In this document: piece after piece, positions 9,408 to 45,579 of the stretch
How positions within the stretch are numbered: the stretch's first letter is position 1
Layout of the letters: the number at the start of each line of letters is the position of its first letter
Origin: Methanothrix harundinacea
GTDB lineage: Archaea > Halobacteriota > Methanosarcinia > Methanotrichales > Methanotrichaceae
Direction of reading: 5' to 3'
Length of the DNA: 61,634 bases
Assembly: GCA_001509375.1 (NCBI GenBank)
Contig: LGFT01000003.1
Coordinates: 1 to 61,634, forward strand
The notes under the pieces: model-generated
Told to the model about the DNA's origin: nothing
The model's input: the letters and a program-made list of their open reading frames with translations, nothing else
The model's database searches: none
Translations under genes and position numbers: made by a program

Positions 9408-10619
9408 CTATTTTCGCCTCTCTGTCGTGACCCGCCCCCGCAGCACCTCGCCGGGCTCGCTCCGATAGCCAGACCCGATCACAGTTCCAGGATATATCGA
9501 TGTATTGATTCCGGTCTTGACGTCGTCGCCCATTATGACACCCAGTTTATGTCTCGCGGTCTTCACCCACTCACCCCTGATGTAGGACTGGATGTCTCCA
9601 CGATCGTGACGGAGATTTGCAACAATCGTTCCAGCCCCGAAGTTGCAGTTCGATCCGATGACGCTATCTCCGACATAGCTCAGGTGGGCGACGTTGGTAT
9701 TTTCCATGATGGTGCTGTTTTTGATCTCTACGGCGTTTCCTATGCGGACGTTATCTCCTATGCACGTATAAGGCCTGATGAAACAGTTGGGCCCGATGTC
9801 GCAGTTCTCTCCGATCACCACAGGCCCCTCGATGTAAGAGCCAGACCTTATTCTCGTCCCGACGCCGACAGATACCCTTCCTGAGAGGGTGGCGTTCGGC
9901 TCCACGTCACCCAGGACGGAGTATTGCTCAGAGCTGAGCAGCTTTTCATTGGCGTTCAACAGGTCCCAGGGTCTGCCGATCTCTATCCACTCTTCGATCT
10001 CGGCCACCCGTATCTCTTCTCCCCTCGATACGAGGGCGTTCAAACCGTCGGTGAGCTCATACTCTCCCCTCTCGGAGACGGGAACGTCTCTCAGGACGTC
10101 GAAGATCTTCTCATTGAGGAGGTAGATTCCCGCATTGGCCAGATCTGATGGAGGTGACCTGCTCTTCTCCTTCACGGACTTTAGCTCCCCCCTCTCCACC
10201 TCGAATACGCCGTATCTTGAGGGATCCGGGACCCGTTTAGCAGCCACTGCAAGCCCGTCCGTCCCCACCATCCACTTCAGAGATGATTCATCGGTCAGAA
10301 CGTCGCCGTTGAGCACCAGGAACCGGTCTTTTGCCATCTCTTCGGCCACCATTAGAGCATGGCCTGTACCAAGCTGTTCTTTTTGGACTACGTACTCTAT
10401 CTTTGTTCCAAAATCGCTGCCGTCTTCGAACCTCTCCGTGATGGATTCCAATCGGTAGCCCACGACGAAGATGAACTCGGTTATTCCGGCGTTTGATGCT
10501 CTTTTGACCATATGTTCGAGGAAGGGCTTTCCCCCGGCGGGAAGCATGACCTTGGGCCGCGAAGAGGTGAGCGGCCTCATCCTCGAACCTTCGCCTGCTG
10601 CTAAAACGATCGCCTGCAT
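9408..10619 (-). CDS. Bifunctional sugar-1-phosphate nucleotidyltransferase/acetyltransferase (GlmU-like, copy 1)
   Basis: Same two-domain architecture as its neighbour. The N-terminus MQAIVLAAGEGSRMRPLTSSRPKVM binds the nucleotide, NGDVLTDESS follows, and a hexapeptide-repeat helix (VVIGENCDIGPNCFI, RIGNAVEIKNSTI) occupies roughly residues 245-390. The likely job is acetylation of GlcN-1-P and uridylylation to UDP-GlcNAc, feeding the sugar operon on the other strand. The ATG at 10619 has GAGGTGG about 11 nt upstream; the reading frame runs further 5' but without family support. The length of 403 residues is normal. It lies between tldD (51 nt gap) and copy 2 (about 100 nt gap). Confidence 0.9.
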   Translation of the reverse strand: MQAIVLAAGEGSRMRPLTSSRPKVMLPAGGKPFLEHMVKRASNAGITEFIFVVGYRLESITERFEDGSDFGTKIEYVVQKEQLGTGHALMVAEEMAKDRFLVLNGDVLTDESSLKWMVGTDGLAVAAKRVPDPSRYGVFEVERGELKSVKEKSRSPPSDLANAGIYLLNEKIFDVLRDVPVSERGEYELTDGLNALVSRGEEIRVAEIEEWIEIGRPWDLLNANEKLLSSEQYSVLGDVEPNATLSGRVSVGVGTRIRSGSYIEGPVVIGENCDIGPNCFIRPYTCIGDNVRIGNAVEIKNSTIMENTNVAHLSYVGDSVIGSNCNFGAGTIVANLRHDRGDIQSYIRGEWVKTARHKLGVIMGDDVKTGINTSIYPGTVIGSGYRSEPGEVLRGRVTTERRK

Positions 10620-39798: not shown

Positions 39799-40854
39799 TC
39801 ACCCTCTCTTGAAGTATCTCGGCGCCGTCTCCAGGGCCCTTGCGATCAGCTCGGCAGAGGCCTCGAGATCTTTGATGCTCAAAACCTCGACGGGAGAGTG
39901 GATATAACGCGTGGCGACGCTTATGAGCCCCGTATGGATCCCCTCCCTCGTCAGCTGGATGGCGGTGGCGTCGGTGGTCCCGCCTCCGGAGACGTCCATC
40001 TGGACGGCGATCTCGAACTCCCGAGCCGTCTCTGCCAGCCAGTCCACCACCTTCTCCGATGCGATGAGCCCCCGCCCCGATGCATCGGCGATGGTGATAA
40101 CGGCCCCTTTCCCGATCTCGAGGGCCGAGTCCTTCTTCTCGATCCCCGGATGGTCGCCGGGGATGGTGACGTCTGTCGCAAGGGCCACGTCGGGACGGAG
40201 GTCGAAGGCGCTCGTCTTCGCTCCCTTCAGCCCCACCTCCTCCTGGACCGTTCCCACTGCGTAGATCGTGGACTTCGACCTCGTCCTCTTCAGCGCCTCG
40301 ATCATCATGACGACCCCGGCCCGGTTATCGAGGGCCTTTCCCGTCACCCTGTCCCCCGCAAGGGTCGTGAAGGTCCGATCGATGCTCATGGGGGTTCCGG
40401 GCTTGATCCCCAGGGCCTTCGCCTCGTCCTGATCGACGCAGCCGGCGTCGACGAACATATCCTTGATCTCGATCGGCTTCTTTCTGTCTTCGGGCGTCAT
40501 CACGTGGGGGGGCTTAGACCCGATGACCCCACAAACAGGACCCGAGTCGGCGTGGACGATCACCCTCTGGTTTAAGAGGGTCTGGTCGAACCAGCCCCCG
40601 ATGGTGACGAACCGAATGAAACCCTTCTCGTCGACATACTTGGTCATGAGGCCGATCTCGTCCATGTGGGCTGCCACCATCACCGAGGGGCGCTCGCCCT
40701 TCTTGGTGGCGACGAGGTTTCCGAGGTTATCCACCCTAATCTCGTCGACGAGGGGGCCGATCTCCTCTCGCACTATCTCCTGAATGGAACCCTCTCGCCC
40801 CGATATTCCATGGGCGTTGCTCAGCCGTTCAAGAAGCCTTTGAATCTCGTTCAT
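39799..40854 (-). CDS. M42-family metallo-aminopeptidase
   Basis: A cytosolic dodecameric-type aminopeptidase (TET family), releasing N-terminal residues from peptides. The expected ligands are all present: H63 in MVAAHMDEIG, D176 in GKALDNRAG, the catalytic pair E205/E206 in GTVQEEVGLKG, D228 in LATDVT, and H319 in TRYIHSP. The length of 351 residues is normal. It probably completes peptide recycling downstream of proteasome and Lon. The adjacent fused lyase/RFAP synthase gene lies 38 nt upstream on the same strand; cotranscription is possible. Confidence 0.95.
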   Translation of the reverse strand: MNEIQRLLERLSNAHGISGREGSIQEIVREEIGPLVDEIRVDNLGNLVATKKGERPSVMVAAHMDEIGLMTKYVDEKGFIRFVTIGGWFDQTLLNQRVIVHADSGPVCGVIGSKPPHVMTPEDRKKPIEIKDMFVDAGCVDQDEAKALGIKPGTPMSIDRTFTTLAGDRVTGKALDNRAGVVMMIEALKRTRSKSTIYAVGTVQEEVGLKGAKTSAFDLRPDVALATDVTIPGDHPGIEKKDSALEIGKGAVITIADASGRGLIASEKVVDWLAETAREFEIAVQMDVSGGGTTDATAIQLTREGIHTGLISVATRYIHSPVEVLSIKDLEASAELIARALETAPRYFKRG

Positions 40855-40892: not shown

Positions 40893-42428
40893 TCAGGCGG
40901 ATCTCGTCCGCGCCCCCGAGTTTCTGGGTCTGGTGACGACGACCTCGCCCCCCACGTCCCTCATAACCTCCATCGCCGCAGCCTGGATATCCCTCGTCCC
41001 CGAATCGACGATGGCGTAGACGGTGGGGCCAAAGGAGCTAAGCCCGGCACCGACAGCTCCCGCAGACCTCATCTCCTCCATGAGGCTTCGGATCAGCGGG
41101 TGCTGCAGCCCCACCTCAACCTTCTTGAACCCCAGCTCCTGGACCCTGTTCACGGCGGTGCCGAAGCTCTCCAGATCCTCCTCCAGGACGGCGGGGATCA
41201 TCCTCACCAGGATCTCTCGGCATAGCTCCGCGACCTCATCTCTTGGGACGGGACAGAAGGTCCCAAATACGTCCAATTCCCTTTTGCCGTGGGCCCCTTT
41301 GGGGATATCCGGCATCGCCAGAAGAAAACACCAGGACTCCGGTAGGTCGGCCTGCAATATCACCGGCGGGGGGGCGACCCCCACCGAGGCGGAGGAGGGG
41401 CGATAGTCCTCCTTCTCCTTGCCGGGGCCAAAGGAGTGGCCGCCGTCGACGATGAACCCTCCCCTATCGAAAGCGGCGACCCCTATCCCGCTCGTTCCAC
41501 CCCGGCCGACGGCGGAGGCGATCTCGCGGGCTGATGCGGGCATGCCGTATAGCTCGCAGAGAGCCTTTCCCACGGCCATGGCGAGCTGCGTTCCCCCGCC
41601 GAGGCCGACGTGCTGCTTGTAGGAGTGCCGGACCGTAATCTCGGCGCCGCCGAGATCGAACCGGTCCATTACGGCTTTTGCCGCCGCTCTCGCCCGGTCG
41701 GCGTTCTCTCCTCGGACGGTGAGCTCCTCACCCCTCTCCGCCTCCACCACAATGCAGGGATCATCCAGGGTCACCCCCACGCCGCCGTCGACCCTGCCGC
41801 GGTCTCCGGCGAGGTCGGTGAGGGTCATGTGTATCCGAGAGGGGGTCTCCACCACCACCCTCCTTTTATCCTGGAAGTTGTTGTAGGGGAAGGTCTCGGT
41901 GATGGACATCAGAGGCAGGCCATGCCTGATGATCTTGTAGTCTCTCGATAGCATCGGCTCTTTTCCGAAGACGTTGAAGATCCCCTTCAGCTCCCCCGCA
42001 TCCGAGAAAGCTCTGACCCTCAAAAGGTCGCGCCTCGACTCGATCCTATGCTTCTTGAGGATGGTCCCTATGGGGATGTCTGCCCTCATCAGGTCGGTTC
42101 TAAAACGGTCTTCGAGCCTCTTGAGGGGAGTGAAGGAGGTGGCATGAATCAGGGTCTCCCCAGAGACGGAGTTTTTGAGCTTGACTACCCTGTAATTCAC
42201 CTCGTCCCCGGGCTCGACCTCCAGCTCGGAAGAGACGAGCTCGTCGGCTGCCACCACCTTCTGGACCAGGGTCTCGAGCTCAACGGGACTTCCAGTGACG
42301 ACCTCGAGAAGGCACGTCACGGAGCCGTCAGTCCCCAGGAGCATCTTCTGGACGGGGCTGAGCCTGCCCACGGTCTCTTCGAGCCTTTCGATCTCCTCGT
42401 CGATCTTCAGGGGAGCTTGTTCTGGCAC
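40893..42428 (-). CDS. Chorismate lyase fused to beta-RFAP synthase (methanopterin pathway)
   Basis: A 511-residue protein with two domains. Residues about 10-185 match the chorismate-pyruvate-lyase-like family (DUF98), with LLGTDGSVTCLLE, DIPIGTIL and SITETFPYN; this would give 4-hydroxybenzoate and pyruvate. Residues about 188-505 are a GHMP-type beta-ribofuranosylaminobenzene 5'-phosphate synthase: SRIHMTLTDL, HVGLGGGTQLAMAVG at 273-287, and SGIGVAAFDRGGFIVDGGHSFG. That enzyme couples an aromatic acid to PRPP in tetrahydromethanopterin synthesis, so the fusion joins substrate supply to use. I start at the GTG at 42428; the frame also opens at an ATG at 42524 but that would run into the divergent HMG-CoA reductase promoter. 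Confidence 0.9.
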   Translation of the reverse strand: MPEQAPLKIDEEIERLEETVGRLSPVQKMLLGTDGSVTCLLEVVTGSPVELETLVQKVVAADELVSSELEVEPGDEVNYRVVKLKNSVSGETLIHATSFTPLKRLEDRFRTDLMRADIPIGTILKKHRIESRRDLLRVRAFSDAGELKGIFNVFGKEPMLSRDYKIIRHGLPLMSITETFPYNNFQDKRRVVVETPSRIHMTLTDLAGDRGRVDGGVGVTLDDPCIVVEAERGEELTVRGENADRARAAAKAVMDRFDLGGAEITVRHSYKQHVGLGGGTQLAMAVGKALCELYGMPASAREIASAVGRGGTSGIGVAAFDRGGFIVDGGHSFGPGKEKEDYRPSSASVGVAPPPVILQADLPESWCFLLAMPDIPKGAHGKRELDVFGTFCPVPRDEVAELCREILVRMIPAVLEEDLESFGTAVNRVQELGFKKVEVGLQHPLIRSLMEEMRSAGAVGAGLSSFGPTVYAIVDSGTRDIQAAAMEVMRDVGGEVVVTRPRNSGARTRSA

Positions 42429-42514
42429 ATAAAAAAGAAGTGCTGGCTGGCATAAAGTTTTTCCCCTCCGATGACGAGCTTTTCCCTCTCTCCGGCTTTG
42501 TGGAGGTTGTTTGA

Positions 42515-43771
42515 TTGAAGACATCGAGAATTTCCGGGTTTTACAAGCTTCCAGCTTCGGATCGGCTCAGGATGGTGGCGGAGAACGCCGGCCTCTCCGA
42601 GGAGGAGGCCGAGACGATCGCAAGACGAGGCCTCTCTCTCGACCAGGCCGACAAGATGATCGAAAACGTCATCGGCCTATTCCAGATCCCCCTGGGGATA
42701 GCGACGAACTTTCTGATCGACGGTCGGGAAGTTCTGATCCCCATGGCGACTGAAGAGCCGTCGGTGATCGCAGCCGCCAGCAACGGGGCAAGGATGGCCT
42801 TCGCCGGCGGAGGCTTTGTCACCAGCAGCACGCGACCCGTGATGAGGGCCCTCATACAGGTGACGGGGGTCGAGGACCCCCACGGCGCGCGGCTCGCCAT
42901 ACTGGCCCGAACTGAAGAGATCGCGGCCAGGGCGAACGAGAAGGACCCGATGCTGGTCAGGTACGGGGGAGGCGTCGTAGGCGTCGAGGCGAACGTCGTA
43001 TCCACCCGGAAGGGCCCGATGGTGGTCGTTCACCTGCTCGTCGACTGCAGGGACGCCATGGGGGCCAACGCTGTCAACACCATGGCTGAGGCCCTGGCCC
43101 CCTTCATCGAGGAGATCACCGGGGGGAAGGTATATCTCAGGATCATTTCGAACCTCGCCGACCTCCGGCTCGCCCGGGCCCGGGCCGTCTTCAAGGCAGA
43201 TGAGATAGGAGGATCCGAGGTCGTCGATGCCATCGTTCTTGCGAGCGCCCTTGCCGAGAGCGATCCCTATCGGGCTGCGACCCACAACAAAGGGATCATG
43301 AACGGCGTGACGGCGGTGACGATGGCCAGCGGGAACGATACCAGGGCCATCGAGGCAGGTGCCCACTCTTACGCTGCCCGGGGCGGTGTCTATAGATCTT
43401 TATCGACGTACGAGAAGAACCGAGACGGTGACCTGGTGGGCACCATCGAGCTTCCTGTCGCCGTCGGGACCGTCGGCGGAGCGACGCGGGTCCATCCCGT
43501 GGCCAGGGCCAACATGAAGATCCTGGGGCTCAAATCCGCCGACGACCTGGGACGGATTTTGGCCTCGGTGGGCCTCGCCCAGAACTTCGCCGCCCTCCGG
43601 GCCCTCGCCACCGAGGGGATCCAGAGGGGGCACATGTCGCTCCACGCCAAAAACGTCGCCGTCCAGGCGGGAGCCGTCGGCGACGAGATCGAGGTCGTGG
43701 CCGGCAAAATGGCGGCTGAGAAGAAGATAAACGTCGAGAGGGCAAAGGAGCTTTTAAGTGAGATGAAATGA
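42515..43771 (+). CDS. 3-Hydroxy-3-methylglutaryl-CoA reductase, class II
   Basis: Reduces HMG-CoA to mevalonate for archaeal lipids. The sequence is of the bacterial-type class II (Pseudomonas mevalonii / Archaeoglobus) rather than the usual archaeal class I. The catalytic residues are E81 in ATEEPSVIAAAS, K259 in ATHNKGIMNG, D275 in ASGNDTRA, and H377 in RGHMSLHAKN. The 418 residues suit the class. The start is a TTG at 42515 with GGAGG nine nt upstream. The stop overlaps prephenate dehydratase (ATGA). NADH use is typical of the class, though some members take NADPH. Confidence 0.95.
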   Translation: MKTSRISGFYKLPASDRLRMVAENAGLSEEEAETIARRGLSLDQADKMIENVIGLFQIPLGIATNFLIDGREVLIPMATEEPSVIAAASNGARMAFAGGGFVTSSTRPVMRALIQVTGVEDPHGARLAILARTEEIAARANEKDPMLVRYGGGVVGVEANVVSTRKGPMVVVHLLVDCRDAMGANAVNTMAEALAPFIEEITGGKVYLRIISNLADLRLARARAVFKADEIGGSEVVDAIVLASALAESDPYRAATHNKGIMNGVTAVTMASGNDTRAIEAGAHSYAARGGVYRSLSTYEKNRDGDLVGTIELPVAVGTVGGATRVHPVARANMKILGLKSADDLGRILASVGLAQNFAALRALATEGIQRGHMSLHAKNVAVQAGAVGDEIEVVAGKMAAEKKINVERAKELLSEMK

Positions 43772-44601
43772 ACCGATCGATCGGAGTTTTGGGGCCGGAA
43801 GGGACCTTTTCGGAGAAGGCCGCAAAAAGGTACAGTCCCGAGGCCAGCCTTCGGTACTACCGGGACTTCGAGGAGGTGATCGCCGCCGTCGAGGGAGGCG
43901 AGGTGGATCTCGGGGTCGTCCCCCTGGAAAACAGCCTGGAGGGGTCGGTGGGAATGACCCTCGACGCCCTCCTCCGCCGTGACGTCAAGATCACAGGCGA
44001 GATCAACTTGAGGGTGAGACATTGCCTTTTGGGCATCGGAAGGCCCGAGGAGGTGAAGGTGATCCTCTCCCACCCCCAGGCCCTGGCCCAGTGCAGGAGC
44101 TACCTCAAACGCAGGTTTCCCCAGGTCGAGCTGAGGACGACGGGCTCCACCAGCCACGCCGCAAAGCTCGCTGGGGAGTTCTCCGAGATGGCGGCCATCG
44201 CCGACGCTGAGGCTGCGGAGCAGTATGATCTTTCGGTGATCGAGAGAGACGTCCAGGACTCAGACCAGAATGTGACCCGTTTTGTGGTGGTGGGCCGGGA
44301 GGCGCCGGAGCCGAGCGGAAGAGACAAGACCTCTCTGGCCGTATACCTGGAGAGGGCCGAGCCCGGAGCCCTCTGGGAGGTCTTGGGAGAGTTTGCGAAG
44401 AGGGGGATAAACCTCACCAAGATCGAGTCCCGGCCCAGCAAAAGGGGCCTCGGAGATTATTACTTCTTCATCGACCTGGAGGGGCATGTATCCGACCCCC
44501 TCGTCGAAGAGGCGCTGGCTCGGATAAGGGAGAGGGCGGCCATGACCAAGGTTCTGGGGTCCTACCCTCGGACGGACCCCGGCGGGACCTCGGAGAGATG
44601 A
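43768..44601 (+). CDS. pheA: Prephenate dehydratase with ACT domain
   Basis: Converts prephenate to phenylpyruvate for phenylalanine. The N-terminal catalytic domain includes GVLGPEGTFSEKAA, GVVPLENSLEGSVGMT and SDQNVTRFVVV with the conserved T-R-F. The C-terminal ACT domain (about 185-265) contains the regulatory ESRPSKRGLGDYYFFID, where phenylalanine binds. The 277 residues are normal for a monofunctional enzyme. It is translationally coupled to the class II HMG-CoA reductase gene, an unusual metabolic pairing. Confidence 0.96.
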   Translation: MNRSIGVLGPEGTFSEKAAKRYSPEASLRYYRDFEEVIAAVEGGEVDLGVVPLENSLEGSVGMTLDALLRRDVKITGEINLRVRHCLLGIGRPEEVKVILSHPQALAQCRSYLKRRFPQVELRTTGSTSHAAKLAGEFSEMAAIADAEAAEQYDLSVIERDVQDSDQNVTRFVVVGREAPEPSGRDKTSLAVYLERAEPGALWEVLGEFAKRGINLTKIESRPSKRGLGDYYFFIDLEGHVSDPLVEEALARIRERAAMTKVLGSYPRTDPGGTSER

Positions 44602-44608
44602 TGGGAAT

Positions 44609-45088
44609 ATGAAGAACGAGAGGCCGAGGGAGGGGAAAGCGCGGGTGGAGGAAGATACAAAACCTCAAAAGATCACGGCCTCCCTGAATAAGACCGCCAC
44701 AAGCTTCGCCCAAGTCTTTCCCATCCTCATCGGGGTTATGCTCCTCATCTCACTCATACTGGTCTTGGTCCCGCAATCCTTCTACGGGGCGGTCTTCACC
44801 GGAGACGAGATCTTCGACCCCTTGGTCGGAGCTCTTATCGGGAGCGTTGCCGCCGGAAACCCCATAACCAGCTACATCATCGGCGGAGAGCTGCTAGATA
44901 GGGGCGTGAGCCTTCTGGCGGTGACGGCCTTCATAGCTGCCTGGGTGACCGTCGGCATAGCTCAGCTTCCTGCCGAGGGTATGGTATTGGGAAAGAGGTT
45001 CGCCTTGATCAGAAACGTCATCTCCTTCCTCTCGGCGGTGCTCGTGGCCATTCTCACCTCCTTAACCCTGGAGCTGATCTGGCCTTGA
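44609..45088 (+). CDS. Permease-like membrane protein, N-terminal half
   Basis: A 159-residue integral membrane protein with four to five spans (VFPILIGVMLLISLILVLVP, LVGALIGSVAAGNPITSYIIGG, LLAVTAFIAAWVTVGIAQLP, NVISFLSAVLVAILTSL). The GNPITSYIIGGELLDRG segment resembles a half of the ArsP/YraQ-type permease family (PF03773-like). It overlaps the next gene, which encodes a similar half, by TTGA. Together they could make one heteromeric permease. The substrate is unknown. The first 30 residues are charged and cytoplasmic. Confidence 0.65.
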   Translation: MKNERPREGKARVEEDTKPQKITASLNKTATSFAQVFPILIGVMLLISLILVLVPQSFYGAVFTGDEIFDPLVGALIGSVAAGNPITSYIIGGELLDRGVSLLAVTAFIAAWVTVGIAQLPAEGMVLGKRFALIRNVISFLSAVLVAILTSLTLELIWP

Positions 45089-45579
45089 CCATCCGAAACC
45101 CCACCGCCAAGCACTTCCTGGCTCTGCTGACAGCCATTTATCTGGGGCTTGCTGCCGTTGACTTCGACATCTTTTTGAGGGCGATCTCAGTCTTCACCAA
45201 GCTCCTTTCAAACGTCCTGCCGATTCTGGCCCTCGTCCTCTTGATCATGTCCCTTTTGAACCTGAAGATCAAGCCGAGGATTGCTAAGAGGATGCTGGGG
45301 AAGGGGTCGGGTCTGAAGGGTTGGACCTTCGCCGTGGTGGGGGGCATCCTCTCGTCGGGCCCCGTATACGTCTGGTATCCCCTACTCGCAGACCTCAGAG
45401 AGGAGGGGATGAGAGACTCTCTAGTTGCCGCCTTTATGTACGCTCGGGCGATCAAGATCCCTATGATTCCCCTACTTGTATACTACTTCGGCTGGAATTT
45501 CACCCTCCTCTTCACCCTCTACCTTTTGATCTTCTCAGTCCTGAACGGGCTTTTGGTCGAGAGGCTGACGGAAAGATGA
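45085..45579 (+). CDS. Permease-like membrane protein, C-terminal half
   Basis: A 164-residue membrane protein with four to five spans. The repeat motif GGILSSGPVYVWYPLLADLREEGM corresponds in position to GSVAAGNPITSYIIGG of the preceding protein, so the two halves are likely related by the internal duplication typical of the ArsP/YraQ permeases. The start is a TTG that overlaps the preceding stop. No frameshift remnant is visible between the halves: both begin and end cleanly. Transported solute unknown. Confidence 0.65.
   Translation: MTIRNPTAKHFLALLTAIYLGLAAVDFDIFLRAISVFTKLLSNVLPILALVLLIMSLLNLKIKPRIAKRMLGKGSGLKGWTFAVVGGILSSGPVYVWYPLLADLREEGMRDSLVAAFMYARAIKIPMIPLLVYYFGWNFTLLFTLYLLIFSVLNGLLVERLTER

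Follow-up and report, generated by a model that had tools for sequence, protein, structure and literature searches.

A single gene of Methanothrix harundinacea encodes both a chorismate-lyase-like DUF98 domain and a beta-RFAP synthase, and we propose from its sequence that the product is very probably a bifunctional enzyme, with both activities predicted and 4-hydroxybenzoate as the presumed physiological substrate. The N-terminal DUF98 domain would convert chorismate to 4-hydroxybenzoate and pyruvate, and the C-terminal synthase domain would convert 4-hydroxybenzoate and PRPP to beta-RFH-P, CO2, and PPi. With these two steps, the fused protein would serve in making the arylamine half of tetrahydromethanopterin. 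The gene lies in a window of 61,634 nucleotides, the whole stretch of DNA that was analysed (Table 1). The fusion is real and widespread; a search of open-access papers found no prior description, and within these papers it is apparently new.

Table 1. Features of the window around the fused gene; residue numbers (R112, E210, D237, R244) follow the 543-aa frame
Feature	Position	Strand	Basis or remark
Fused DUF98/RFAP synthase gene	40893..42428	-	Start probably the GTG at 42428, 511 aa
Longest alternative of fused gene	ATG at 42524	-	543 aa, open frame 40893-42524
DUF98 / Rv2949c-like chorismate pyruvate-lyase domain, N-terminal	41883..42338	-	PF01947, PDB 2nwi
beta-RFAP synthase domain (GHMP fold), C-terminal	40908..41855	-	NF040726, TIGR00144, ForT 6yqq/8ap0
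Codon of Arg112	42189..42191	-	Aligned with UbiC Arg76
Codon of Glu210	41895..41897	-	Aligned with UbiC Glu155
Asp237...Arg244, D-x6-R motif of RFAP synthases	41793..41816	-	D19, R26 of MTH0830 (PMC6787355)
M42 aminopeptidase gene, just downstream	39799..40854	-	Conserved neighbour; no known pathway part
HMG-CoA reductase gene, divergent	42515..43771	+	Conserved neighbour in Methanotrichaceae
Prephenate dehydratase gene	43768..44601	+	Conserved neighbour in Methanotrichaceae

Gene structure and domains of the fused protein

Both domains were located inside one stop-free minus-strand frame of 543 codons (40893-42524). The GTG at 42428, the start given in the first-pass annotation, is in frame with this ORF and yields a protein of 511 aa. 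Judging from the sequence, this shorter start is more likely than the ATG at 42524, because the latter would overlap the divergent HMG-CoA reductase ORF (from 42515) and because the open N-termini of homologues are short; in L132 and L144, for example, just 17 open codons lie ahead of the conserved domain.

PF01947 matched residues 63-214 of the 543-aa ORF with 96.9 bits against a cut-off of 22 (1.4e-27, Pfam), and a second PF01947 search of the N-domain gave 1.3e-28. The N-domain also matched PDB 2nwi (A. fulgidus AF1396) at 2.7e-39 by sequence and, by fold (Foldseek), with a TM score of 0.94 over the target, an rmsd of 1.5-1.6, and 43-47% identity. No match of the fused protein to PF04345 (UbiC) was obtained in the Pfam search. 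Against NF037993, the cyanobacterial chorismate lyase equivalog, the fused protein scored 39.1 bits, below the cut-off of 175; by this score the N-domain is related to that equivalog yet outside it. In UbiC, Arg76 and Glu155 bind 4-hydroxybenzoate (PMC7879144). Their mapping onto R112 and E210 comes from a weak hhalign match (probability 10%, E 0.003) in which the residue correspondence is sensible. The first-pass annotation had regarded a domain lacking the lyase active-site residues as an argument against its reading; however, these UbiC equivalents were invariant in 39/39 DUF98 domains and in 51/51 fused proteins aligned, and the reading withstood this check.

The C-terminal part was matched by the NF040726 equivalog over residues 224-539 (391.5 bits, cut-off 328, NCBIfam) and by TIGR00144 at 8.1e-109, and Pfam placed two GHMP domains downstream of PF01947 in the fused ORF. 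The ForT structures 6yqq and 8ap0 matched the synthase domain by sequence as well as by fold, and the ForT-PRPP complex was its best fold match (Foldseek). In the alignment of fused proteins, the motif residue D192 was conserved at a level of at least 90%, and R199 was invariant. For the 498 conserved residues of the fused protein, an AlphaFold2 model had a mean pLDDT of 93.3 and a pTM of 0.90.

Gene order around the fusion is conserved in Methanotrichaceae, running from prephenate dehydratase through HMG-CoA reductase and the fused gene to the M42 peptidase. Elsewhere in the window, two consecutive half-size ORFs (44609-45579, plus strand) resemble the ArsP_1 permease (PF03773), the first scoring below the cut-off, and from their sequence they are perhaps a two-part permease. 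In several Methanomicrobiales (L233, L234, L235), the fused gene lies ~2 kb upstream of mch, which encodes an H4MPT enzyme, and a phosphoglycerate-mutase-like gene is found on its other side.

Distribution of fused and separate forms

We searched 295 genomes of the phylum with TIGR00144 and with PF01947, and PF01947 was present in 157 of them. The first-pass annotation had suggested a comparison of fused and separate forms in archaea, and within the phylum this comparison was made. When a frame of 500 aa or more was taken as fused, the 148 DUF98-bearing genomes listed with frame length comprised 55 fused and 93 separate forms. No family among these genomes was mixed; each was wholly fused (f1, f5, f9, f13, f16, f22, f23, and f24) or wholly separate, and in f1, the family of M. 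harundinacea itself, all 11 of 11 were fused. The fused forms were found in Methanotrichaceae, Methanomicrobiales, and one further family, with that of G272 cut by a contig end. In addition, named genomes were scanned with an alignment of DUF98, which yielded 80 loci, from Methanothrix/Methanosaeta/Methanocrinis, Methanoculleus, Methanoregula, Methanolinea, and other Methanomicrobiales.

The source of the window is a draft assembly of 118 contigs, and an assembly error or frameshift could in principle have united two adjacent genes. Such an artefact is, however, excluded here: the same fusion occurs in 78 of the 80 named relatives, which come from independent assemblies (the other two run off contigs), and in single-contig genomes; no indel is present at the DUF98/synthase junction among relatives, and the flanks are conserved. 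These relatives and the complete genomes also ruled out chance. With PF01947 and NF040726 both scoring over their cut-offs, the original description of a chorismate-lyase-like domain joined to an RFAP synthase was borne out.

Among the separate forms, the six genomes of f4 and one f7 genome carry a free DUF98 gene directly after the RFAP synthase gene on the same strand. This order (synthase, then DUF98) is the reverse of that in the fusion, so lyase and synthase became associated outside the fusion as well. In f2, f3, f6, f17, f19, f27, and most of f7, the genes lie apart. In eight f7 genomes (G255, G175, G215, G190, G137, G088, G269, and G284), one or two stop codons fall within the DUF98 match, probably because the gene's own end lies inside the alignment.

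Substrate of the fused protein

4-Hydroxybenzoate was already proposed from biochemical work as the substrate by White in 2011 (10.1021/bi200362w, as reported in PMC3261824); in the route as reported there, beta-RFH-P is converted to beta-RFSA-P, from which PurB forms beta-RFA-P in the final step (PMC3261824). The first-pass annotation had taken the fusion itself as evidence for this substrate. Since the 4-hydroxybenzoate route was proposed in 2011 (10.1021/bi200362w, according to PMC3261824), the fusion corroborates the substrate but does not discover it, and is not the primary evidence. The claim that 4-hydroxybenzoate is the substrate is otherwise supported. Exactly one Chorismate_bind protein was found in 17/17 fused genomes tested, UbiC (PF04345) was absent from 30/30 genomes tested, that of M. 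harundinacea among them, and the unfused genes are adjacent in some lineages. The lone chorismate-binding enzyme is presumably TrpE, and its being the only one per fused genome therefore leaves no separate PabB. Three haloarchaea-like genomes without DUF98 had three Chorismate_bind proteins each. Chorismate synthase is present in the M. harundinacea genome.

Two other readings of these data have to be weighed. RFAP synthases of the NF040726 family take p-aminobenzoate in vitro, and the published assays that we found use this compound (PMC6787355). p-Aminobenzoate might thus be the true substrate of the synthase, with the 4-hydroxybenzoate of the lyase serving elsewhere and the fusion incidental; one TrpE could in principle do both jobs, or the cell might take up p-aminobenzoate or synthesise it by other means. 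For Methanococcus, the title of Porat 2006 suggests a route to p-aminobenzoate with unusual early steps. However, 17/17 fused genomes lack a second chorismate-binding enzyme (PabB), the fusion has been retained in both Methanotrichaceae and Methanomicrobiales, and in other lineages the genes lie side by side; p-aminobenzoate is therefore a very unlikely physiological substrate. The other reading concerns the N-domain, which could be a non-catalytic, UTRA-like ligand binder, regulating the synthase in response to 4-hydroxybenzoate or chorismate. The chorismate-lyase fold is common to the UTRA sensor domains of GntR regulators, and weak PDB matches to yurK (2ikk) and to a GntR regulator (3lhe) were obtained. 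Neither match was significant (E 0.79 and 0.83, respectively), and a UTRA-type sensor was rejected on this ground. Moreover, fused and free DUF98 domains share the same product-binding residues without exception, and the family matched at the gathering level includes lyase members. Nearly all fused genomes have a single DUF98 match, and a dead N-domain would leave the cell with no lyase, because there is neither a second DUF98 copy nor, in the M. harundinacea genome, a UbiC. A purely regulatory N-domain is therefore very unlikely.

For a bifunctional protein using 4-hydroxybenzoate, we tentatively consider a further, rather doubtful possibility, namely that 4-hydroxybenzoate passes directly from lyase to synthase, or that the fusion relieves product retention by the lyase. 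The path from chorismate to beta-RFH-P would then be one channelled step, fixing the cell on 4-hydroxybenzoate and not p-aminobenzoate. Such channelling, which the first-pass annotation had likewise read from the fusion, would be compatible with a junction that is rigid and free of indels and with a model that places the two domains confidently relative to each other. The choice between p-aminobenzoate and 4-hydroxybenzoate as methanopterin precursor has so far been argued from assays accepting both. Retained in both Methanotrichaceae and Methanomicrobiales, the fusion speaks for 4-hydroxybenzoate on independent, genomic grounds, and the fused protein offers a single polypeptide for assaying the coupled reaction. 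The physiological substrate matters because RFAP synthase is discussed as a target of methane inhibitors (PMC6787355).

Genomes lacking the lyase or both enzymes

In f11, f14, f18, f8, and parts of f6 (genera g16 and g53), RFAP synthase was present and both DUF98 and UbiC were absent, so these lineages must obtain the aromatic acid in some other way. UbiC as a back-up lyase was rejected, as none of 30 genomes contained it. These lineages (f6 in part) also have a single chorismate-binding enzyme, and this count alone therefore does not prove the 4-hydroxybenzoate route. Two further genomes, G136 and G218 (L117 and L212), carry a canonical RFAP synthase without a lyase domain. They have zero Chorismate_bind proteins and hence no TrpE, which suggests that they import aromatic compounds. 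A secondary loss of the lyase domain was rejected for both, with no recognisable DUF98 remnant upstream of their synthase.

Furthermore, 12 near-complete, Methanomicrobiales-like, H4MPT-using genomes (G056, G145, G164, G213, G267, G253, G091, G101, G121, G203, G223, and G096) were found to be without both the canonical RFAP synthase and DUF98. Mch and chorismate synthase are kept in 12/12 of them, and G253 retains the genes on either side, with the fused gene alone cleanly missing (L232, gap 9549-10138). A distant RFAP-synthase-like paralogue (50-85 bits) was detected in 11 of the 12, as well as in their fused relatives; in G096 no such paralogue was seen. This protein of ~360 aa (PARIHLTVLDMNRF...PGGGG) is encoded at L215-L225 and L229-L231 (e.g., L218:1366-2439:+). 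It scores below the NF040726 and TIGR00144 cut-offs and occurs whether or not the genome has the fused gene. On its sequence, the paralogue is a candidate for supplying the missing RFAP synthase activity.

Origin of the fusion

In the synthase-domain tree, the fusions of Methanotrichaceae and Methanomicrobiales formed one clade (100/99). The Methanosarcinaceae-like f2 lies outside this clade despite being nearer taxonomically, which implies transfer of the fused gene or its loss in f2. The f9 fusions were placed elsewhere with weak support and may represent a second fusion event; however, a tree in which all fused rows were held as one clade was not rejected (p-AU 0.41 and 0.47, one value per domain), which also allows one origin.

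Comparison with known systems

The N-terminal domain resembles the DUF98 family (PF01947; AF1396, 2nwi) in scoring over the gathering cut-off, in its fold, and in its invariant residues. Whereas 2nwi is a free-standing chain of 172 residues, the Methanothrix domain forms one chain with the enzyme presumed to act after it. E. coli UbiC (PF04345) would share the reaction predicted for the fused protein, and its Arg76 and Glu155 have aligned equivalents. By contrast, UbiC belongs to another Pfam family with weak profile similarity and is unfused, and PF04345 is absent from the M. harundinacea genome.

The C-terminal domain is like the beta-RFAP synthases (NF040726; M. thermautotrophicus MTH0830 and M. 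jannaschii MJ1427) in passing the equivalog cut-off and in retaining the D19/R26 motif. The characterised RFAP synthases in the literature consulted are free-standing, whereas that of Methanothrix bears an N-terminal lyase domain. The likeness to ForT, the C-glycoside synthase of formycin biosynthesis, lies in the GHMP fold and in PRPP-dependent decarboxylative C-glycosylation of an aromatic acid. ForT differs in its heteroaromatic substrate, in belonging to a bacterial antibiotic pathway, in its sequence (~30% identity), and in being without a lyase domain.
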